Part shown: one piece after another, positions 21,804 through 32,002 of the stretch
Layout of the letters: each line of letters opens with the position of its first letter
Position numbering within the stretch: position 1 is the first letter of the stretch
Assembly (NCBI GenBank): GCA_013140455.1
Contig: JABFSU010000120.1
Location: forward strand, 1-32,002
Source of the DNA: Nitrospira sp.
GTDB taxonomy: Bacteria > Nitrospirota > Nitrospiria > Nitrospirales > Nitrospiraceae
DNA length: 32,002 bases
Direction of reading: 5' to 3'
Made by a program: the position numbers and the translations under genes
The notes under the pieces: generated by a model
Seen by the model: the letters and a program-made list of their open reading frames with translations, nothing else
Told to the model about the DNA's origin: nothing
The model's database searches: none

Positions 21804-22742
21804 TTATGAGGCAGAATGGACTTTGGCTCGTGCCATCATCTTGCAGTAGGAGCAGACTTCGGCGGTGGTCGGTTGCTGACAGACGGAGCAGGGGTGCAGC
21901 ATGGCCTGGTCTTTCTCGGCCATCGTGGTCGGGGAGGCTTGCGGTTTGCGCTGTTTATCGAGAAATCCGCAATAGAAGGCCTGCTTGGTGCCGGGTGACT
22001 CCGTTTCGAGCCGGTTCAACACCTCCTTGTAGAGCAGCGTCCGGGCGCCTTTCGCCATCGGGCATTCTTCGACGATGTAGTCGATCCGGTTCAAGACCGA
22101 GTAGGCGGCTAATTCGCGCTCGGACAGGCGAAAGAGCGGTTTCACTTTCTTGGCGAACCCGTCGAGCGAAGCCGGCAGGTTGGGGGACTGCTTGTCCAAA
22201 TACTCTTCCTGCCAGCGGAGCACGTTGCCCAGCAGACGGGCCGCTTCATCGTCGAGATTGTGGCCTGTCGCCATCACATCGTATTTATGTTCCAGCGCCA
22301 CGCGATTGAACTGGTAGCGTTTGATGGTTCCACATGTACTACAGGTCGGGCGGTGAATCAGCATGGCCAGTTCCCGAATACCGGCGCCGGCTTCCTGCTC
22401 GACGGTGTGGACGTGCAGGGCCGCGCCATGCGGGGCGGCTACGGTTTCAGAAAACTTGACCACTTTGGCATGGGACACTTCCGAATAGCCGCCGATGCCG
22501 AGGTTCACGTACAGCGCGTCGGCCTTGTAGCCCATCTTGAGGAGCACATCCCAGAGCGCCAGGCTGTCTTTCCCGCCCGACACGGCCACAAGGATGCGAT
22601 CATCCTTCCCGAACATTTTTTCAGACTTAATGGCCCTGCCGACCTGGTCATGCACATAGTAGTTGAAGCAGTCTTTGCAGAAGGCGGCATTGTGGCGCGG
22701 CAGATCGATCACCGCTCTGGTTTTGCATTTCGTGCAGTTCAT
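21804..22742 (-). CDS. TtuA/CTU1-like tRNA 2-thiolation enzyme (TtcA superfamily)
   Basis: This is a tRNA sulphur transferase of 312 aa. It has an N-terminal zinc ribbon (C3, C6, C22, C25), PP-loop ATP pyrophosphatase motif SGGKDS (55-60), the iron-sulphur/catalytic Cys pair in PTCSTCGTIKR (C134, C137) with a third Cys in EECPMAKGAR, and a C-terminal zinc ribbon (HPCSVC and VCSYCKM). Two zinc ribbons around the core distinguish the TtuA/NcsA/CTU1 group, which thiolates U54 or U34, from plain TtcA, which thiolates C32. The exact tRNA position cannot be told. It uses ATP to activate the uridine and a sulphur carrier as donor. It stands upstream of pagL on the same strand with a 22-base gap. Confidence 0.87.
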   Translation of the reverse strand: MNCTKCKTRAVIDLPRHNAAFCKDCFNYYVHDQVGRAIKSEKMFGKDDRILVAVSGGKDSLALWDVLLKMGYKADALYVNLGIGGYSEVSHAKVVKFSETVAAPHGAALHVHTVEQEAGAGIRELAMLIHRPTCSTCGTIKRYQFNRVALEHKYDVMATGHNLDDEAARLLGNVLRWQEEYLDKQSPNLPASLDGFAKKVKPLFRLSERELAAYSVLNRIDYIVEECPMAKGARTLLYKEVLNRLETESPGTKQAFYCGFLDKQRKPQASPTTMAEKDQAMLHPCSVCQQPTTAEVCSYCKMMARAKVHSAS

Positions 22743-22975: not shown

Positions 22976-23482
22976 CTATGGTCTCTCCTGGATATCTGTC
23001 AGCGCTTTCAGAATATCCGCCGGACGCGGAGGGCAGCCGGGAATGCGGACATCGACCGGAATATGCCGGTCGACCGGCCCGGTCACCGCATAGCTCCCTT
23101 TGAAGGCGCCGCAGTTGATAGCGCAGTCGCCCAGCGCAATCACCAGTTTCGGATCAGGTGTCTGTTTATAGACATCCTTCAAGGCGCGCTCCATGTTGAC
23201 GGTGACCGGTCCTGTGACGACCAGGGCGTCCGCATGGCGCGGCGAGGCTGCGATGTGGATACCGAACCGTTCGACGTCATAGACCGGATTGGTCAAGGCG
23301 TTCATCTCCATCTCACAGGCATTGCAGGAACCGGTGTCGACTTCGCGAATGGCCAGCGACCGATTGAAGGCGGAGGCTTTCTTACGCACCTCCGGCGCCG
23401 GTGGTTCGGAGGGCTGTATGGCGGGAGGGTGCCGGCCCGTCACCACCCCGGTCTTGAGGCTTTTTTTAAGAATACGAAACAT
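22976..23482 (-). CDS. hyfI: NuoB/HyfI-like iron-sulphur subunit
   Basis: This is a peripheral subunit of 168 aa of a complex-I-like or hydrogenase-4-like assembly, holding the [4Fe-4S] cluster next to the large subunit. Cluster Cys residues are visible: C53 and C56 in GSCNACEMEM, C120 in LGDCAINCG (C124 is extra) and C150 in PGCPPRP. The spacing CxxC fits the hydrogenase small-subunit type rather than the CC pair of true NuoB. The N-terminal 40 residues are basic and Pro-rich. GAAAGGAGGCCC before the ATG is a strong ribosome-binding site. The gene is last in the operon, after the large subunit and an unusually long spacer of 96 bases. Confidence 0.92.
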   Translation of the reverse strand: MFRILKKSLKTGVVTGRHPPAIQPSEPPAPEVRKKASAFNRSLAIREVDTGSCNACEMEMNALTNPVYDVERFGIHIAASPRHADALVVTGPVTVNMERALKDVYKQTPDPKLVIALGDCAINCGAFKGSYAVTGPVDRHIPVDVRIPGCPPRPADILKALTDIQERP

Positions 23483-23504
23483 GGGCCTCCTTTCGTCAGC
23501 GGGT

Positions 23505-23527
23505 ACGAGGCTAGAGGCACGAGGCTA
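23505..23527. repeat. Short direct repeat in the hyfG-hyfI spacer
   Basis: The 9-mer ACGAGGCTA occurs at 23505-23513 and 23519-23527, separated by GAGGC. The spacer is the only long gap between the hyf-like genes from hyfB to hyfI. Confidence 0.6.
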
Positions 23528-23578
23528 TGGGGGGACGCTTTCCACTTCTTGCCCCTAGCACCGCGCCGCTCGCCCGCT

Positions 23579-25171
23579 TCATAGGTCATTTCCGGCATAC
23601 GAGAGATTGAAACTTTTATTGATCAGCGGAAAGTCAGGGATGATATTTCCGATGACGGCCCACTGAATCGCGGGCCAATTCACAAAGGACGGGTCACGGA
23701 CTTTACAGCGCTGAATGGTTCCGTTTTCCCCTGCCGTCACCATGTATAGAATTTCACCGCGCCAGCCTTCAACGGCTGACAAGGCCCATTCACCGGTTTG
23801 TGCCACGCGACTGGGTTCGCCGGCGACCGGCCCTTGCGGAATCTTCAGGCGAACCTCTCTGACCAGCCGCATGGACTCGTGGATCTCATCCATGCGAACA
23901 CGCATCCGCGCCCGCACATCGCCATATCGATAGTTCACCACCTTGACGGGAAGTTCGTCGTAGGCGGCAAAGGGCCGATCGCGCCGGAGGTCTTGATCGA
24001 GGCCCGACGCCCGTCCGACGACTCCCACCACCGCATGATCCCAGGCTGTGCGTTCGGTCAGGACACCGGTGGTCTCCAGACGGTCTATCAGGGAGGCGTT
24101 GTGGGCGATGATCGATTCCAGTTCCGAGAAGTCCTGTTCGATGCGGTCCATTTCAGCGACAATCTCGGCCAATTGTGCCGCCGTGAGATCGATGGCGACT
24201 CCACCCACCCTGGTGACTCCACGGAGAAATCGTGAGCCGGTCAGCCGGTCGTTGAGCTGCATGATCTGCTCTTTCATCCGGCTGCAATGGGCATGGGGCA
24301 AGGCATAGGCGGTATCGTTACAGATGGCGCCCACATCGCCGAGATGGTTGTGGAGTCGCTCCAATTCGAGAAACAGGCTCCGGAGGTATCGTCCACGGCG
24401 TGGCACCTCGAGATGGAGTAGTGATTCGACCGCCTGGCAGTAGGCGAGGCTATGGCCGATGGTCGTATCACCGGATACCCGTTCGGCTAAGGGAACTGCT
24501 GCGGTCAATGTTTGTTGCTCGAACAGCTTCTCCACGCCGCGATGTGTCCAGAAATGATGCAGCTCGAGTTGCATGATGGGTTCACCAGCCACGGAAAATC
24601 GAAAATGGCCCGGTTCGATGATCCCGGCATGGATCGGCCCCACCGGTACTTCAAACACCCCTTCCCCCTCAATGCGGCGGAAGTGATGTTCGCCTTGCTG
24701 CCGACCCAATACGTGGTCCCAGAGGAAGTCTTTTTTGAGCGGGTGGGTGCCTTTGGGCCAATGTTCGTGCCGAACCAAACGTCGCAAGTCCGGGTGCCCC
24801 TGTGGAATCAATCCGAACATGTCGCGAATCTCTCGCTCATACCACTGTGCGGCATGAATGTGCGGCGTGATGGAGGGGAATAACCGGTCGTTTCCCGCAA
24901 GTTCAGCGGATAACAGCATCCAGCGGTGGGAGGGCTCCAGGGTGAACAGGTAGTGCAATCCATAGGTGTTGCGTGTGGGGCGATTGTCGACAGCCCATAA
25001 GAGCGTGAGCCTGCCATGCAAGCCCGGTTGGGTATGGAGGTACCGGGTGATCGCCGGCAGGAGATCTTTGGAGACGAGAAAATGAGAGAATTCCTTCTGC
25101 ACCTCGTCCTTTTGTACGATGGACGGGAACGCGGCTTTGAGTACTTCGTCGCAGGACCTCGACTCTGCCAT
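23579..25171 (-). CDS. hyfG: HyfG/NuoCD-like large subunit lacking Ni-Fe ligands
   Basis: This is a 530-aa fusion of a NuoC-like domain (about 1-150, with IHAAQWYEREIRDMFGLIPQGHPDLRRL) and a NuoD/hydrogenase large-subunit domain (about 170-530). In [NiFe] hydrogenases this subunit carries RxCxxC and DPCxxC. Here the first motif reads ERVSGDTTIGH (230-240), with Ser and Thr in place of Cys, and the second reads PDFPLINKS with no Cys. The protein therefore cannot hold a Ni-Fe centre and probably couples a quinone-like or other redox site to the membrane part, as in complex I. ATG 25171 is chosen because GGGGGAT lies before it; the frame extends upstream into the end of hyfF, which is 13 bases away. 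Confidence 0.93.
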   Translation of the reverse strand: MAESRSCDEVLKAAFPSIVQKDEVQKEFSHFLVSKDLLPAITRYLHTQPGLHGRLTLLWAVDNRPTRNTYGLHYLFTLEPSHRWMLLSAELAGNDRLFPSITPHIHAAQWYEREIRDMFGLIPQGHPDLRRLVRHEHWPKGTHPLKKDFLWDHVLGRQQGEHHFRRIEGEGVFEVPVGPIHAGIIEPGHFRFSVAGEPIMQLELHHFWTHRGVEKLFEQQTLTAAVPLAERVSGDTTIGHSLAYCQAVESLLHLEVPRRGRYLRSLFLELERLHNHLGDVGAICNDTAYALPHAHCSRMKEQIMQLNDRLTGSRFLRGVTRVGGVAIDLTAAQLAEIVAEMDRIEQDFSELESIIAHNASLIDRLETTGVLTERTAWDHAVVGVVGRASGLDQDLRRDRPFAAYDELPVKVVNYRYGDVRARMRVRMDEIHESMRLVREVRLKIPQGPVAGEPSRVAQTGEWALSAVEGWRGEILYMVTAGENGTIQRCKVRDPSFVNWPAIQWAVIGNIIPDFPLINKSFNLSYAGNDL

Positions 25172-25184
25172 GGTAGCTATCCCC

Positions 25185-26723
25185 CTAGTGAACCAGGATG
25201 ATTCGCGTCGCTTCTTCCAATAGTTGCCGGATGGGCTGAGGGAGGAAGAACCCAAATCCCACCAACGCCGCAGCGAGCACGATGATCGGCAGATGGCCCA
25301 AGGTCCAGGCTTCTCCCCGGACGATTCCCTCAGGCGGGGTGCCCCAGACCATATTGGTGATGCGATAGAGCAAGCCACTGAATGCAAGTACGGAGCAGAG
25401 CAGAAACAGTCCAGTGAGGCTCAGGCTGGTGAATCGGTTCGAGAAGGCAACGGTCACCATCCCGCCGCTGTTGCTCAACCATTGTCCCGGAATCCCTTGT
25501 GCAGCCAGGGCTGTGACGATTTGCACCTCGCTGACAAATGAGGCGAAGGGAGGAAGGGCCGATAAGGCCAGTCCCGCGATCATCAAGGCCATGGCGGTCC
25601 AGGGCTGCGCAATGGCCAGCCCCTGCACCTGACCGATCTCCACCGTGTGAAAGCGACGGTGAATGTTGCCTGCGGCAAAAAACGCCATCGACTTGGCGAA
25701 TGCATGATTCAGCAAATGAAACAGCCCACCGAAGGCTCCCAGCGGACCCCCGACCCCGAAGCCGATCATGGCGATCCCCATATGCTCGATGCTGGAGTAG
25801 GCGAACAGCCGTTTATAGTTGTGCTGAATGAGGATGAAAAACGCGGCCGTCACAAACGAGGCAAACCCGAGCAAGGCTAGCAGTCCGCCGGTGAAGGCAG
25901 GGGAGACGGCGTGGTCGACAATCATCTTCATGCGGAGAATGGCATAGACTGCGACAATTTCGAGCACACCGGCCAGCATCGCCGCTACCGGAGCCGGCGC
26001 CTCGGTATAAGCCTCCGGCAGCCAGCTATGCATGGGCACGAGTCCCACCTTGGTGCCATAGCCCACTAGGATGAAAATGAAGGCCAACTTCAATACATGC
26101 GGATTTAACTGGTCGGCCACAGGCAGCAACTGTGTCACGTTCAGCGCTTCGCTGACGTCCCCCAGCACATGCAGCGAGGAATAATAGGTGAGCACCACGC
26201 CGAAGAGTGCGAGGGAAATTCCGACCGAACACAAAATGAGGTACTTCCATCCGGCTTCCAGGGACTCTCGCCGTCGCCAGAAGGCAATCAGGAAGGTTGT
26301 GGCGAGCGTCGTCGCCTCGATGGCCACCCATTGCACCCCGACACTGTTTGCGACGGTCGCAATGACCATCGCCAGCAGGAACATGTGAAAGAGGAAAAAA
26401 AAGAGGTTGAGCCTCGTGGGGGCGATCACTCCTCGCGCCACCTGGTCGTCCATGTAGGAACGCATGTAGAACGAACAGGCCAGCCCGACCGCCCCGATGA
26501 TGAAGAGAATGAACACCGACAAGGCGTCGAGATAGACCAACTGTCCCAGCGCCGTGAACGGGCCATCCTTCAATACGGTCCTGGTGATCATGATTTCTGC
26601 CCCCACGAGCAAACTCATACTCGTGAGGTTGATCGCGTGGAGGAGCGAAGACCGATGAATAAGCAAGCTCAACCCCCCCGCGAGCAGCGGGGAGATCAAC
26701 AACACAAGGACTTCGATTATCAC
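25185..26723 (-). CDS. hyfF: HyfF-like antiporter-type membrane subunit
   Basis: This is an integral membrane subunit of 512 aa related to NuoN/MrpA-type antiporters, with about 14 hydrophobic segments. The conserved Glu136 (WVAIEATTLATT) and Lys225 (GYGTKVGLVPMHSWLPEAY) of the ion channel are present, then EAPAPVAAMLAGVLE and LFAYSSIEHMGIAMIGFG. These subunits move protons or sodium ions across the inner membrane, driven by electron transfer in the peripheral arm. The start is the GTG at 26723: it follows GAAGGG and gives the hydrophobic N-terminus expected. The open frame continues 213 codons upstream, but that part is the antisense-like shadow of the hyfE gene and is not hydrophobic. Gap to hyfE is 14 bases. 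Confidence 0.9.
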   Translation of the reverse strand: MIIEVLVLLISPLLAGGLSLLIHRSSLLHAINLTSMSLLVGAEIMITRTVLKDGPFTALGQLVYLDALSVFILFIIGAVGLACSFYMRSYMDDQVARGVIAPTRLNLFFFLFHMFLLAMVIATVANSVGVQWVAIEATTLATTFLIAFWRRRESLEAGWKYLILCSVGISLALFGVVLTYYSSLHVLGDVSEALNVTQLLPVADQLNPHVLKLAFIFILVGYGTKVGLVPMHSWLPEAYTEAPAPVAAMLAGVLEIVAVYAILRMKMIVDHAVSPAFTGGLLALLGFASFVTAAFFILIQHNYKRLFAYSSIEHMGIAMIGFGVGGPLGAFGGLFHLLNHAFAKSMAFFAAGNIHRRFHTVEIGQVQGLAIAQPWTAMALMIAGLALSALPPFASFVSEVQIVTALAAQGIPGQWLSNSGGMVTVAFSNRFTSLSLTGLFLLCSVLAFSGLLYRITNMVWGTPPEGIVRGEAWTLGHLPIIVLAAALVGFGFFLPQPIRQLLEEATRIILVH

Positions 26724-26737
26724 AATAAACCCTTCAC

Positions 26738-27403
26738 TTATTCCTTCAGTACGGTGAGGTGGTTGGTGTCGACATTGTCGAACGCGTCTTGCAAACGATT
26801 CGTATAGATTCCCGCAATTAACGCCGCGATGAGCACGTCGAAGAACACTCCCAGTTCCACGATTAAGGGCATCCCGTAGGTGGCGGCGGTGGCTCCCAAA
26901 AATAAGCCGTTCTCCATGACCAGAAAGCCCACCAGCTGCGTGACGGCCTTTTGCCTGGCAATCATCGTGAAAAATCCGATGAGTACGATGGCCAGGGCGA
27001 TGGCCAGAGAATCGCGCGTGAGCAGAAAGCCCAGCGGAATGATGGGCTGCGTGATGAAGAAGGCCAGCATCACCAGCGCGCCGCAGATCAGCAGGCCGGC
27101 CGGTACGTTGACGTTCATCACCAATTCTCGCTTGACGTTCAGACGCTCGATGACTTTCTTGAGCACCCTCGGGATGATGACCACTTTGATCACGCCGGTC
27201 AGCGCCGCCGCGATGTAGATGTGATGGTTTCCGGTCAGGAAGGCCACCACCGCTGCCGTTAGGACGAGAAAGGCCGACTGCAGCGCAAACAAGTCGACGC
27301 AGGCGGAGAGCCGCCGCTGTGCCACGATGGCGAAACAGGTGAGCAAAAGTAAGGCTGAGCACAAGTCAACGAGCTGCGATCCGGTGTGGGGAGAAATCTG
27401 CAT
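26738..27403 (-). CDS. hyfE: HyfE-like membrane subunit
   Basis: This is a protein of 221 aa with about seven hydrophobic segments; the C-terminal half resembles NuoK. Recognisable parts are FLTGNHHIYIAAALTGVIKV with VIIPRVLKKVIERL, and ARQKAVTQLVGFLVMENGLF with a conserved membrane Glu, followed by FFDVLIAALIAGIYTNRL. This is the usual pattern of hydrogenase-4 component E. The gene lies 4 bases after hyfC and ends just before the hyfF start. It sits in the membrane arm between the antiporter-like subunits and the NuoH-like subunit. Confidence 0.9.
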   Translation of the reverse strand: MQISPHTGSQLVDLCSALLLLTCFAIVAQRRLSACVDLFALQSAFLVLTAAVVAFLTGNHHIYIAAALTGVIKVVIIPRVLKKVIERLNVKRELVMNVNVPAGLLICGALVMLAFFITQPIIPLGFLLTRDSLAIALAIVLIGFFTMIARQKAVTQLVGFLVMENGLFLGATAATYGMPLIVELGVFFDVLIAALIAGIYTNRLQDAFDNVDTNHLTVLKE

Positions 27404-27407
27404 CGGC

Positions 27408-28367
27408 TCAGCTCCGAAGAATGTAAAAGAACAGCAGTCCGAGCAACGCCAGGATAAAGGCGACGCCCAGGAGATCCGTCACGCGGAACAGCCGCAATTT
27501 TGCGAACATGCACTCGAGGACCCCGATCAGCACCGCAAGCCCTGCGATTTTCACCGCGTAGACCAGGAGCCCGATCCCCATCGCGGTCGGCGCCAGCGTG
27601 GTCGCGATGCCCCAGGGCGCGAAGACGTTGGCGATCAGCGAGAGAAATACGGCCAACTTCAGGCCGGCGGCCCATTCGATTAAGGCGAGATAGCGGCCCG
27701 AGTATTCTAGGACCATCGCCTCATGGATCATGGTCAGTTCCAGATGCGTGGCCGGATTGTCGACCGGCACCCGCCCGGTCTCGGCGAGCGCTACGATGAA
27801 CAGGGCTGCCAGTGCCATCAGATGCGGGGATGGATCGGTCGCGATCCCTTCCAACAACGCGGTCTTATGGACAATGGTGCTGAGATTGGTGGAGCCGGCG
27901 GTCAGTGCGATGGCAAAGATGGAGAGGATCATGGCCGGTTCTGTCAGCGACGCGACGATCGCTTCACGGCTGCTGCCCATCCCGCCGAACGCGGATCCGG
28001 CATCGAGTCCTGCGAGGATCAGAAAAAATGTTCCCAGTGCCAGGAGATACACGAGCGCGATGATGTTCCCAGAAAAGTTTAACGGTGTCTGTGAGATGAA
28101 CGTGGGAACCAGCAGACCCGCGGAGAGTGTGGAGGCGAACAGAATGTACGGTGTCGCAGGGAAGATCCAGGAGGTCGTTGTCGAAATTACCGGCTGCTTT
28201 CGGAAGAGTTTGGCGATATCGGCATAGGGCTGGAAAACGCTGGCGCCTTGCCGGCATTGGAATCGTGCCTTCACCTTGCGGATGAGCCCCACGAGGAAGG
28301 GAGAGACCGTGAGCAGCACGATGACCTGTGCCGTCACGAGCAACAGTGATTGAATGATAGGCGACAT
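27408..28367 (-). CDS. hyfC: HyfC/NuoH-like membrane subunit
   Basis: This is a 319-aa integral membrane subunit that links the peripheral arm to the ion-translocating arm. The family signature KARFQCRQGASVFQPYADIA (33-52) is followed by KLFRKQPV, and later by the conserved loop GRVPVDNPATHLELTMIHEA with acidic residues that line the quinone/proton path. About eight hydrophobic segments are visible. AGGAGA before the ATG overlaps the end of hyfB (14-base gap), so translation is probably coupled. Confidence 0.93.
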   Translation of the reverse strand: MSPIIQSLLLVTAQVIVLLTVSPFLVGLIRKVKARFQCRQGASVFQPYADIAKLFRKQPVISTTTSWIFPATPYILFASTLSAGLLVPTFISQTPLNFSGNIIALVYLLALGTFFLILAGLDAGSAFGGMGSSREAIVASLTEPAMILSIFAIALTAGSTNLSTIVHKTALLEGIATDPSPHLMALAALFIVALAETGRVPVDNPATHLELTMIHEAMVLEYSGRYLALIEWAAGLKLAVFLSLIANVFAPWGIATTLAPTAMGIGLLVYAVKIAGLAVLIGVLECMFAKLRLFRVTDLLGVAFILALLGLLFFYILRS

Positions 28368-28381
28368 TTTGCGTACTTCTC

Positions 28382-30406
28382 CTAGACGGCGAACAGCAAC
28401 AAGATCACCAGCGTCACGAAAATATAGGCCAGGTACAGATGGAGGCTGCCAGCCTGAAGAATACGCAGGCGGTCCGCGATTCTCATAAAGATATGGATCA
28501 CCGGATCGTAGAGGTACTTCTCAAAGACCGGCTCGATGTGAAACTCAAACTTCCGTTGTTTGGCGAAGTAGCGGGACTTTTGCAGAAACTCAGTTTCGAG
28601 CTTGATGGTCGGCTGGTAAATGGTGCTGAAGACTCGCTTAATCGGTTGGACAAATCCCGTGGCCGTGTACTCCATCCGTGGGGAGAGATTGATCCCGCAG
28701 CCCCAGGTCTTGTATGAGCGTGTCATCAGGCGGCCACCGAAGAGGAATGCCAAGAGGAGGCCAAGGAGGCCGCCCAGGATCAGCATGGCCGCCAACATGG
28801 GCGGTGAGATGCTGGAGAACTGCACGTCCCCTGGTGCCACGGCCCAGCCATCGAGTGCGAGGACCTTGTCGGTGATCGATACGCCGGTCAGCGGTGCGGT
28901 AATCCGGTCGAGGAGCGGCACGACGATCATGGGGGCGAGGCCAAGTCCGACGCACAGCAGGGCCAGGATGCCCATCCCGATCCGCATGGCAACCGGGACT
29001 TCTTCGGCATGGCGTGCATGGGCACTTCGTGGGAGAGCCAAGAAGGAAATGCCGAAAGCCTTGGCAAAGCAGGCCAGCGCTAAGACGCCGGTCAAGGCCA
29101 GCAGGGCCGCAGCGATCGGCAGCATCAACTTGAGGAATAGAGCCGGGAGTTGAAAGCTCAGAAAGAGTGTTTGGAACACCAGCCATTCGCTCACGAATCC
29201 ATTGGTCGGGGGGAGGGCCGAGATCGACACGGCGCCGATGAGAAAGAACAGACCGGTCCAGGGCATGCGACGCAGCAGCCCGCCGTACTCTTCCATATTG
29301 CGCGTATGGGTGGCGTAGAGGAGCGAGCCTGCTCCCAGGAAGAGTAAGGCCTTGAACATGGCATGGTTGATCGTGTGGTAGAGCCCGGCCAACAGGCCCA
29401 GCGCAGCAAATTCATTGAGCCCGTAGGTGTGAAAGATCATGCCGGCGCCGATGCCGAGCAAAATGATGCCGATGTTTTCCACGCTATGAAACGCCAGGAG
29501 ACGCTTGAGGTCATGTTCCATCAGCGCATACATCACACCCAGTATGGCCGAGAGGGTCCCGGCGAGCAGCACCACGAAACCCCACCACCAGGGGAATTGT
29601 CCCCCAAGGAAATCGAAGTAGACCCGGATGAGCGCATAGATGGCCGTCTTGATCATGACGCCGGACATGAGGGCCGAGACATGCGACGGCGCGGCCGGAT
29701 GGGCGTAGGGCAACCAGACATGCAACGGCACGATGCCGGCTTTTGTGCCGAAGCCGATCAAGGCGGCGAGAAAGACCAGGGTTCGCATCCCTTCCGGTAA
29801 GGCCTGCTCCGGATGACGAAAGGCATCAAACGAGAACGATCCAGCGGATTGAAACAAGATCAGATAGGTCAGGACCACAAAGGCGGTGCCGACGTGCGTC
29901 ATGACCAGGTAGAAGAATCCGGCGGGGCGGACGTCCGCCTTCTCATGTTCTGTGACGACCAGAAAGTAGGAGGCGAGAGACATCAGTTCCCAGACCATCA
30001 AAAAGAAAAGTCCGTTGTCGGCGAGCACGACGAGAGTCATGGAGAGAAGAAATCCGTTGAAAAGCGCTCCCAGCGCCGCGACAGAGACGCGTCCCTGGAA
30101 ATGCCGGACATACCCGACGGCATAGATCGCAGCGGCGAGGCCGACCAGCGAGATCGTGAAGACGAATAACGCCGCCAGGGGATCGAGACGGATCGCGAAC
30201 GTGAGCAGTGGGACGGTCGAGGCGATGGAGAGAGTGACCGGTTCAGGCGCAATGAGCCCAAGGAGTCCCAAGGCGATACCTGCACAAGTCGCGACGATGG
30301 CACAGATGCTGGCCGTGAGACTCTGTGTATTCAGCTGCCGCGGATAGAGCGGCAGAACCATGCCGGCCGCATAACCTATGAGAAGGACCCACAGTACATT
30401 CAGCAT
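28382..30406 (-). CDS. hyfB: HyfB-like antiporter-type membrane subunit
   Basis: This is a 674-aa integral membrane subunit related to NuoL and Mrp antiporter proteins, with about 15 hydrophobic segments. The key ion-channel residues are present: Glu140 (FLMVWELMSLASYF), Lys222 (GFGTKAGIVPLHVWLP) and Lys253 (SGVMIKTAIYALIRV). A hydrophilic stretch (about 570-640, SYKTWGCGINLSPRMEYTAT) and a last membrane helix close the protein, as in HyfB. It is the first of the hyf-like structural genes and follows two small genes on the same strand. The start ATG is clear but its ribosome-binding site is weak. Confidence 0.93.
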   Translation of the reverse strand: MLNVLWVLLIGYAAGMVLPLYPRQLNTQSLTASICAIVATCAGIALGLLGLIAPEPVTLSIASTVPLLTFAIRLDPLAALFVFTISLVGLAAAIYAVGYVRHFQGRVSVAALGALFNGFLLSMTLVVLADNGLFFLMVWELMSLASYFLVVTEHEKADVRPAGFFYLVMTHVGTAFVVLTYLILFQSAGSFSFDAFRHPEQALPEGMRTLVFLAALIGFGTKAGIVPLHVWLPYAHPAAPSHVSALMSGVMIKTAIYALIRVYFDFLGGQFPWWWGFVVLLAGTLSAILGVMYALMEHDLKRLLAFHSVENIGIILLGIGAGMIFHTYGLNEFAALGLLAGLYHTINHAMFKALLFLGAGSLLYATHTRNMEEYGGLLRRMPWTGLFFLIGAVSISALPPTNGFVSEWLVFQTLFLSFQLPALFLKLMLPIAAALLALTGVLALACFAKAFGISFLALPRSAHARHAEEVPVAMRIGMGILALLCVGLGLAPMIVVPLLDRITAPLTGVSITDKVLALDGWAVAPGDVQFSSISPPMLAAMLILGGLLGLLLAFLFGGRLMTRSYKTWGCGINLSPRMEYTATGFVQPIKRVFSTIYQPTIKLETEFLQKSRYFAKQRKFEFHIEPVFEKYLYDPVIHIFMRIADRLRILQAGSLHLYLAYIFVTLVILLLFAV

Positions 30407-30472: not shown

Positions 30473-30712
30473 TCACAACCGAGATTGCAACGGTCGGCCG
30501 GTTCGATTCCGGCAGCGGGCCATGCCTTCGCGGGCTTTGAGATTATTCGGGTCAGTATCCAGCACTGCCTTCCAGTTGAAGTGAGCCTCTTCGTACTGGT
30601 CCAGTCTTTCGAGTAAGAGCGCCAGATCGCACCGTGCAAGGAGATCGGTGGGACAGACTGTCAGCAGCTGCTGCAATTCAACCAGTCGTGTGATCCAAGA
30701 ATCATTCAACAT
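30473..30712 (-). CDS. Small TPR-type protein
   Basis: This is a short protein of 79 aa with one to two TPR-like helix pairs: DLLARCDLALLLERLDQYEEAHFNWKAVLDTDPNNLKAREGMARCR. The charged Arg-rich tail is encoded by a stretch that on the other strand resembles a tRNA T-arm. It lies 12 bases after a small membrane protein gene and 66 bases before hyfB, so it is probably co-transcribed with the hyf-like genes. It may be an assembly helper, but no function is known. Confidence 0.65.
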   Translation of the reverse strand: MLNDSWITRLVELQQLLTVCPTDLLARCDLALLLERLDQYEEAHFNWKAVLDTDPNNLKAREGMARCRNRTGRPLQSRL

Positions 30713-31259: not shown

Positions 31260-32002
31260 TTAGGCGCGGATGCCGTATTCCTTGATTTTGTACTGGAGTG
31301 TCCGGAGGCTGATGCCTAAGAGCTTGGCGGCGTTTTCCCGATGATTGGTGACTTCAGCCAATGTCCGTTGGATGACATCTTTTTCGATCTGCTCCAAAGA
31401 AGTTCCTAATGTGACCAGCAATGTATGTGCGTTTTCCTTGCTGGCCTGGATCTCCTCGGGGAGGTGCTCCGGCTGAAGGGTTTTGTCCCGTACCGTCACG
31501 ACGAGGCGTTCCATCAGGTTGCGCAGTTGGCGAATGTTTCCCGGCCATCCATATAACCGAAACAGGCGCATGGCTTCCCGTGACACGTCTTTCGGTTCAC
31601 GGTGATGCTGCGTCGCGCACTCCGCGAGAAACCGGTCCACCAGCAGGGGAATATCATCCGCTCGATCACGGAGCGGTGGAAGGCGAATCGGCACGACATT
31701 CAGACGGTAATAGAGGTCTTCACGAAAGTCTCCCTGCTTGACGGCTTCCTCGAGATTGCGGTTGGTGGCCGCGATGATACGGACATCGACGGTGATCAGC
31801 TTGGTTCCCCCCAGTCGCCTGAATTCCTTCGTCTCCAACACACGCAGAAAATCGACTTGCGACTTGAGGGACAGTTCACCCACCTCATCCAACAACAGCG
31901 TGCCGCCGTTGGCCAGTTCGAACCGCCCGACTTTGGTCGCCATTGCGCCGGTAAAGGCCCCTTTTTCATAGCCGAACAACTCGCTTTCGAAGAGATTGTC
32001 GG
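31260..32002 (-). CDS. Sigma-54-dependent transcriptional activator (5' end outside window)
   Basis: This is the C-terminal 247 residues of an NtrC-type enhancer-binding protein. Visible are DNLFESELFGYEKGAFTGA (the GAFTGA loop contacts sigma-54), Walker B GGTLLLDEVGEL, the RxDLYYRLNV sensor region, arginine-rich LPPLRDRADDIPLL, YGWPGNIRQLRNLMERLVV and a C-terminal Fis-type DNA-binding helix-turn-helix (RENAAKLLGISLRTLQYKIK). Walker A and any N-terminal receiver or sensor domain lie beyond the window edge, so the signal it answers to cannot be told. It is on the same strand as the hyf-like genes and directly upstream of them, so it may regulate them. Confidence 0.93.
   Translation of the reverse strand, partial: DNLFESELFGYEKGAFTGAMATKVGRFELANGGTLLLDEVGELSLKSQVDFLRVLETKEFRRLGGTKLITVDVRIIAATNRNLEEAVKQGDFREDLYYRLNVVPIRLPPLRDRADDIPLLVDRFLAECATQHHREPKDVSREAMRLFRLYGWPGNIRQLRNLMERLVVTVRDKTLQPEHLPEEIQASKENAHTLLVTLGTSLEQIEKDVIQRTLAEVTNHRENAAKLLGISLRTLQYKIKEYGIRA

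Follow-up and report, generated by a model that had tools for sequence, protein, structure and literature searches.

The stretch of DNA analysed here (the window) is a contig of 32,002 nucleotides from Nitrospira sp. (GCA_013140455.1, JABFSU010000120.1). Its minus strand carries, from position 30406 to 22976, six genes in the order hyfB, hyfC, hyfE, hyfF, hyfG and hyfI, hyfG being a NuoC-NuoD fusion. Pfam and NCBIfam matched the six products to HyfB, NuoH/HyfC, HyfE, HyfF, NuoC-NuoD/HyfG and NuoB/HyfI, in agreement with a preliminary description made from the sequence of the window. By its predicted make-up the product is an energy-converting-hydrogenase-related (Ehr) complex, a known kind that two papers already describe in Nitrospirales (PMC10284858, PMC12342949). 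The genes and their main features are:

28382-30406, minus strand: HyfB-like antiporter subunit, 674 amino acids (aa); NCBIfam hydrogenase 4 subunit B, E=3.5e-222, above the curated cut-off
27408-28367, minus strand: HyfC/NuoH-like subunit, 319 aa; Pfam NADHdh, E=4e-46
26738-27403, minus strand: HyfE-like membrane subunit, 221 aa; NCBIfam hydrogenase 4 membrane subunit, E=3.8e-29
25185-26723, minus strand: HyfF-like antiporter subunit, 512 aa; NCBIfam HyfF, E=6e-126; start codon GTG, assigned from the length of homologues
23579-25171, minus strand: HyfG-like large subunit, a NuoC-NuoD fusion of 530 aa without Ni-Fe ligands; Pfam Complex1_30kDa and Complex1_49kDa
24464-24481, minus strand: RVSGDT, counterpart of the RxCxxC motif, large-subunit residues 231-236; alignment with relatives
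23591-23608, minus strand: NLSYAG, counterpart of the DPCxxC motif, large-subunit residues 522-527; phmmer alignment with DPCYSC of 7z0s
22976-23482, minus strand: HyfI/NuoB-like small subunit, 168 aa, with one predicted [4Fe-4S] site; Pfam Oxidored_q6, E=1e-33
23426-23482, minus strand: putative relic of a HyfH/NuoI-type ferredoxin, MFRILKKSLKTGVVTGRHP, small-subunit residues 1-19; shuffle test

No open reading frame (ORF) of the operon matched HyfA, HyfD or HyfH. The operon also lacks NuoI and the NADH module genes NuoEFG, the two complex I copies of the genome being located elsewhere. The six-gene set and its motifs were found again in 41 Nitrospirota large subunits, the first set examined, and again in 72 Ni-less relatives spanning many phyla. 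The ratio of nonsynonymous to synonymous substitution rates (dN/dS) was 0.03-0.21 across all six genes in the comparisons made, which is purifying selection. Because set and motifs recur across relatives under such selection, the operon is not a chance assembly. Gene calls on the related loci, designated here by L numbers, were mechanical ORF calls, and most relatives are metagenome-assembled genomes (MAGs).

Pump residues of HyfB, HyfF and HyfC were 90-100% conserved among relatives. HyfB E140, K222, K253, K352 and E407 were kept in 98-100% of them, the acidic residues E143, E196, E210, E216, E221 and E285 of HyfC in 99-100%, and HyfF E146, K170, K235 and K354 in 100%. This pattern shows that the predicted ion-translocating membrane arm is intact and under selection. 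The preliminary description had proposed an ion pump coupled to quinone or another redox partner; with its charged residues kept, a pump is very probable. As a separate observation, six Nitrospiria loci (L044, L050, L051, L053, L082 and L086) carry two hyfF-like genes in a row, the second providing a third antiporter subunit, and the window carries one.

A phmmer alignment of the large subunit to E. coli HycE (7z0s) placed Ser233, Thr236, Ser524 and Gly527 at the four positions of the Ni-Fe cysteines, so that no Ni-Fe ligand is left. The preliminary description had recognised this loss and the altered RxCxxC motif correctly, but it took DFPLIN for the counterpart of DPCxxC; DFPLIN aligns with HycE DAPLII, upstream of the C-terminal motif, and the true counterpart is NLSYAG. 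The replacement stretch REPLACEMENTS is conserved, and the residues at the lost-ligand positions are non-random among the 72 Ni-less relatives. Ser occupies the first Cys position in 69/72 and the adjacent Gly is found in 72/72. At the C-terminal motif Ser524 is present in 71/72, Tyr525 in 72/72 and Gly527, at the fourth Cys position, in 70/72, while Asn518, Lys519, Ser520 and Asp529 are invariant (72/72). In complex I, His224 and Tyr273 of E. coli NuoCD are quinone-headgroup residues. All 72 Ni-less relatives have Ile and Gly in their place, which speaks against a classical quinone site and weakens the proposed coupling to quinone. The AlphaFold model of the large subunit (predicted local distance difference test, pLDDT, 89.3) matched E. 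coli HycE best (7z0s_E, Z 47.3, root-mean-square deviation 1.9, 519 residues aligned) and complex I next (Z up to 42.4). As a side observation, one Desulfosporosinus copy (L126) retains two of the Ni-Fe cysteines.

Maturation genes were sought in the window's own genome, which is 95.5% complete and was searched family by family. HypD gave no match there, with a positive E. coli control, and therefore no [NiFe] maturation is expected. Among Ehr-bearing Nitrospiraceae hypD was missing from 40/65. Together, the missing ligands and the missing maturation genes exclude hydrogenase activity as far as sequence can.

The small subunit retains C53, C56, C120 and C150, the four cluster cysteines already noted in the preliminary description, together with an extra C124. 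Its model (pLDDT 89.9) matched the small subunit of formate hydrogenlyase best (7z0t_G, Z 21.6), then complex I. The four cluster cysteines are present throughout the aligned Nitrospira small subunits, and one Rokubacteria sequence in the window's clade (L106) carries a PNCC variant. In the ligand-bearing complexes of Firmicutes and Planctomycetota (L105, L108) the small subunit begins with a stretch resembling MFRILKKSLKTGVVTGRHP, continues with a two-cluster ferredoxin domain and ends with the NuoB-like domain. The first 19 residues of the window's protein scored above all 5000 shuffles against the starts of such ferredoxin-fused small subunits and matched E. coli HyfH (p=0.0002); the starts of E. 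coli HyfI and NuoB gave no match. Because its start resembles ferredoxin-fused small subunits and HyfH, and not HyfI or NuoB, the most likely ancestor of the small subunit is a HyfH-HyfI fusion, from which the core that binds the clusters has been lost. With this core gone and its first helix kept, the cluster that would feed the core should be exposed. The absence of HyfA, HyfD and HyfH reported in the preliminary description thus holds for the genes of the operon, but a HyfH-type N-terminal helix, which that description overlooked, appears to survive as the start of the small subunit. NuoI-type genes, for which it had suggested a search of the genome, were found only within the two complex I operons.

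The Ehr assignment rests on a large subunit of the NuoCD/group 4 type without the four Ni-Fe cysteines, on NuoB-, NuoH- and Mrp-antiporter-like subunits, and on a conserved gene order; the preliminary description had likewise pointed to an Ehr-type make-up and a class that is not wholly new. A 2017 paper on comammox and nitrite-oxidising Nitrospira gave the operon hyfBCEFGI the name hydrogenase-4 (PMC5596200). In 2023 the operon of hot-spring comammox was identified as an Ehr that lacks CxxC motifs (PMC10284858), and in 2025 it was reported from about half of Nitrospirales genomes, without induction by H2 in N. moscoviensis (PMC12342949; see also PMC12542776). We found it in 65/120 Nitrospiraceae genomes. 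The described Nitrospirales complexes have the same genes in the same order without Ni-Fe ligands (the N. moscoviensis large subunit is 75% identical), and we see no essential difference. The ferredoxin relic and the cluster-less sister clade described below are not mentioned in the accessible portions of those earlier papers.

By their published descriptions, Rv0082-Rv0087 of Mycobacterium (PMC6728331) and Ehr of Geobacter (PMC7894505) have like subunits and no Ni-Fe site. In actinobacterial and Rokubacteria-branch loci, unlike the window, the operon may open with the small-subunit gene, and an ArsR gene is found close by; the M. tuberculosis and Geobacter loci themselves are outside our sample. 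The ligand-bearing Firmicutes and Planctomycetota complexes (L105, L107, L108, L129, L130, L132, L143, L146 and L147) have like genes in the same order, the DFPLINKSF stretch and 41-42% identity, but they keep RxCxxC and CxxC, and their small subunit includes a fused ferredoxin domain. We take them to be probably group 4f, going by the placement of Ehr near 4f in the literature. E. coli Hyf and formate hydrogenlyase share the folds (Z 47.3 and 21.6), the membrane subunits and the NuoCD fusion, and differ in their Ni-Fe ligands, separate ferredoxin subunits HyfA/HycB and HyfH/HycF, HyfD (in Hyf) and hyp maturation. Respiratory complex I has the NuoB/C/D/H/L/M-type core in common with the window's complex; its NuoE/F/G/I and quinone His and Tyr have no equivalent in the operon. 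A Cupriavidus paper on 'hydrogenase-related' proteins was discarded as a precedent, as it concerns real hydrogenases.

Across the sampled complexes the redox centres form a graded series. Nine complexes with all four Ni-Fe cysteines have a fused ferredoxin arm, in which the Cys pattern gives two full cluster motifs in 7 and one in 2. A few Firmicutes and one Vicinamibacteria have lost the Ni-Fe ligands and kept two ferredoxin clusters. In Acidobacteria, Verrucomicrobia, one archaeal MAG and L052, the Cys pattern of the ferredoxin domain is that of one cluster. Nitrospira and many others have the proximal cluster only. At the end stand complexes, mostly from Patescibacteria/candidate phyla radiation (CPR) MAGs, in which the proximal cysteines themselves are replaced (GSCNAC by GS[TDS]NA[CE], GDC by GDD or GDG, PGCPP by PG[DN]PP). 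The partial Cys loss of the intermediate type was observed in the small subunits of L091, L104, L110, L116 and L052 (8031-8873), where the fourth Cys of motif 1 and three Cys of motif 2 remain, which would form one [4Fe-4S] site.

In trees computed without the Geobacter and Mycobacterium Ehr, the window's large subunit grouped with the described Ehr of N. moscoviensis and other Nitrospira and not inside the ligand-bearing hydrogenases, the outcome of a check that the preliminary description had proposed. In the careful tree the cluster-less group was one clade of 17 large subunits (support 99/98), and its sister was the larger clade that includes the window's sequence (99/97), the two being joined at 92/86. 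The ligand-bearing complexes were basal in the quick tree and one nested clade in the careful tree (89/82). A single Ni-Fe loss was not rejected (approximately unbiased test, p-AU 0.32), so one loss or several may have occurred. The direction of the series, with the ligand-bearing forms first, follows from the implausibility of regaining four ligands and not from the root, which was unstable. Read in this direction, the comparison shows the window's complex as one apparent step in a series that sheds redox centres, with its cluster-less cousins at the end.

The cluster cysteines are replaced in about 15 small subunits of the sister clade. Nine cluster-less complexes were checked, and they keep the charged residues of HyfB, HyfF and HyfC with isolated exceptions at generally variable positions, such as HyfF E409. 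The cavity motif RxSGD..NKSFNLSYxG is also kept, with minor variation. In five genomes (L094, L098, L117, L125 and the L102 genome as L184) the small-subunit gene comes after atpC, in the same orientation and at a distance of 8-258 bp:

L094, 3791-11587, same strand as the ATP synthase: Patescibacteria/CPR cluster-less Ehr-like complex directly behind atpA-G-D-C; also in L098, L117, L125 and L184

L087 has a nearby atpC on the opposite strand, and in six others with readable upstream DNA atpC is not there. Within a sample of Patescibacteria/CPR genomes a match was found in 12/287 (about 4%); L182 and L183, among the weakest of the 12, keep the cluster cysteines and are of another kind. We found no account of cluster-less Ehr in the literature searched, which was open-licence only and so left most subscription journals uncovered. 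As a side observation, a MAG labelled Methanosarcina (L153, 4766-12056) also has an Ehr small subunit without cluster cysteines (GSDNST, GDDAC, PGNPP). Its placement within the CPR clade was weakly rejected (p-AU 0.039, long branch), and its cluster loss may possibly be independent.

The contig is exactly the window, and reading ends at 32002 upstream of the operon. Up to that point the following lie upstream of hyfB, and a fuller cluster is found in other Nitrospira:

30473-30712, minus strand: small TPR protein, 66 bp upstream of hyfB; Pfam TPR_17, E=6e-8, and synteny
31260-32000, minus strand: sigma-54 response regulator, C-terminal part, cut by the contig end; Pfam Sigma54_activat and HTH_8
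L213, 2901-7687: upstream Nitrospira cluster of PF02552 genes, oxidoreductase-like alpha, TPR and secreted protein; also in L212, L215, L216, L219, L077 and L086

With the regulator of L042 as query, the window's regulator gave a match of 87%, and one in the corresponding position in N. moscoviensis (L084) gave 78%. The TPR gene, too, recurs upstream of Ehr in other Nitrospira; the preliminary description had passed over both the regulator and the TPR gene. In several Nitrospira lineages one strand carries a histidine kinase, a sigma-54 regulator, PF02552, TPR, an alpha gene like 2-oxoacid:ferredoxin oxidoreductase, a second PF02552, a secreted protein and then hyfBCEFGI. PF02552 is CO_dh, like the epsilon subunit of CO dehydrogenase/acetyl-CoA synthase. 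Conservation of the alpha gene is weak (PFOR_II, E=4e-6 to 9e-4; PDB 6n2n, E=6e-17), and in L086 a beta gene binding thiamine pyrophosphate is also present upstream of Ehr. Of these upstream genes, N. moscoviensis retains those for the kinase, the regulator and the TPR protein and no others. These neighbours favour ferredoxin as a partner in the part of the group that has them and not in general.

The neighbourhoods of 121 loci held no redox partner gene recurring across the family. The 870 and 572 aa neighbours in Saganbacteria L128, by size candidates for formate dehydrogenase or NuoF, are helicases. A second Ehr type (L065, L074, L075 and L135), Thermodesulfovibrionia-like, adjoins genes for a lysine-2,3-aminomutase-like protein and ATP-grasp ligases; such KamA and ATP-grasp genes were rejected as partner, being confined to that lineage. 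On the other side of the operon, a gene for a TtuA-like tRNA 2-thiouridine synthetase (window 21804-22742) adjoins hyfI, as it does in N. moscoviensis and in the close relatives L038 and L055. Within 22976-25171 the large subunit is nearest L037 (96%), and the small subunit is much nearer L055 and L038 (dS 0.25-0.30) than L037 (dS 1.5), which suggests a mosaic operon with recombination between hyfG and hyfI.

How might such a complex work? We tentatively propose, at a probability of roughly 0.4, an ion translocator whose one remaining [4Fe-4S] cluster is fed by a soluble carrier such as ferredoxin. Its ancestor would have been a translocator of the complex I/group 4 hydrogenase type that possessed a Ni-Fe site as well as a fused ferredoxin arm holding two clusters; in the present form a single [4Fe-4S] cluster would adjoin the former Ni-Fe cavity. 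A soluble one-electron carrier, most likely ferredoxin, would trade electrons directly with the cluster exposed by the lost arm, and the cavity, lined by Ser, Thr, Lys and Tyr, would hold a small acceptor or donor. Redox change at the cluster and the cavity partner would drive the HyfC-HyfE-HyfF-HyfB chain to move H+ or Na+, and in reverse an ion gradient could push electrons to low potential. The entry of electrons at the cluster, the ferredoxin partner, the cavity ligand, the ion and the direction are all points that we infer. In favour of the proposal are the conserved pump residues, the purifying selection on all six genes, the cluster cysteines retained in Nitrospira, the expected exposure of the cluster, the ferredoxin-related neighbours in part of the group, and the fold matches to formate hydrogenlyase and complex I. 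Several observations weigh against it. No oxidoreductase is consistently linked to the operon; upstream, N. moscoviensis and the window as far as its contig end have none. With the classical quinone residues gone, no site can be named for the second redox half-reaction. In addition, the cavity motif is the same in the cluster-less sisters, so the conserved function of the cavity may not need electrons.

An alternative that we consider almost as probable, and that the cluster-less sisters oblige us to take seriously, is a redox-gated or non-redox translocator, Mrp- or DAB-like, powered by an ion gradient or by a non-redox ligand that the former Ni-Fe cavity binds or converts, with the last cluster as only a gate, sensor or structural element. 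The sister clade and L153 lack the cluster cysteines and keep cavity motif and pump residues, five cluster-less operons follow atpC, and the quinone residues and a conserved donor gene are both missing. However, the four cysteines are kept in the window's own clade, the PNCC variant of L106 apart, so the cluster matters here. A broader form of this idea, which we hold to be less likely than not, is that the Ehr family records how a redox enzyme was dismantled step by step until a non-redox ion machine was left. The Ni-Fe ligands would have gone first, the ferredoxin clusters next, then the whole ferredoxin core (Nitrospira and allies) and finally the last cluster (sister clade). The shared function, the window's complex included, would be to move ions, and what drives or gates this movement would not be a flow of electrons through the complex, since sister complexes without a known redox centre, some of them encoded in line with the F1Fo ATP synthase, keep the ion path and the conserved cavity.

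It is improbable that formate dehydrogenase passes electrons to Ehr via the small subunit. Such a pairing has been suggested for Saganbacteria and Riflemargulisbacteria (PMC6349859) and, as a hydrogenase, in the 2017 report on Nitrospira (PMC5596200). The two occur together in 37 of 120 Nitrospiraceae, above expectation (Fisher p=0.0016, uncorrected for kinship), but 28/65 Ehr genomes have no formate dehydrogenase match above the curated cut-off, the enzyme of the window's genome lies on another contig (C103), and HyfA and HyfH, the ferredoxin-type links of formate dehydrogenase to Hyd-3/4, are absent. A decaying, non-functional hydrogenase remnant, suggested for Geobacter Ehr in 2026 (PMC13194489), would fit the lost redox centres and the presence of Ehr in only about half of Nitrospiraceae, but selection on all six genes, the invariance of N518, K519, S520, Y525 and D529 and intact frames across several phyla make it very improbable. 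A true hydrogenase-4 or formate hydrogenlyase, as annotated for Nitrospira in 2017 (PMC5596200) and in line with gene order and similarity to hyf, has next to no chance of being correct given the four replaced Ni-Fe cysteines, the missing hypD and the lack of H2 induction in N. moscoviensis (PMC12342949).

Ehr complexes are widespread, yet no function has been assigned to them from their naming onwards. From the ferredoxin relic, the invariant motifs at the lost-ligand positions and the cluster-less clade, a testable succession of events can be drawn up for the class, and a sharp question follows: can a complex-I-like machine move ions without redox chemistry? In very small genomes, a redox-free complex beside the ATP synthase would amount to an experiment of nature on the coupling of complex I's soluble arm to ion movement. 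For Nitrospira, the annotation as hydrogenase or formate hydrogenlyase, still in the literature, is removed.

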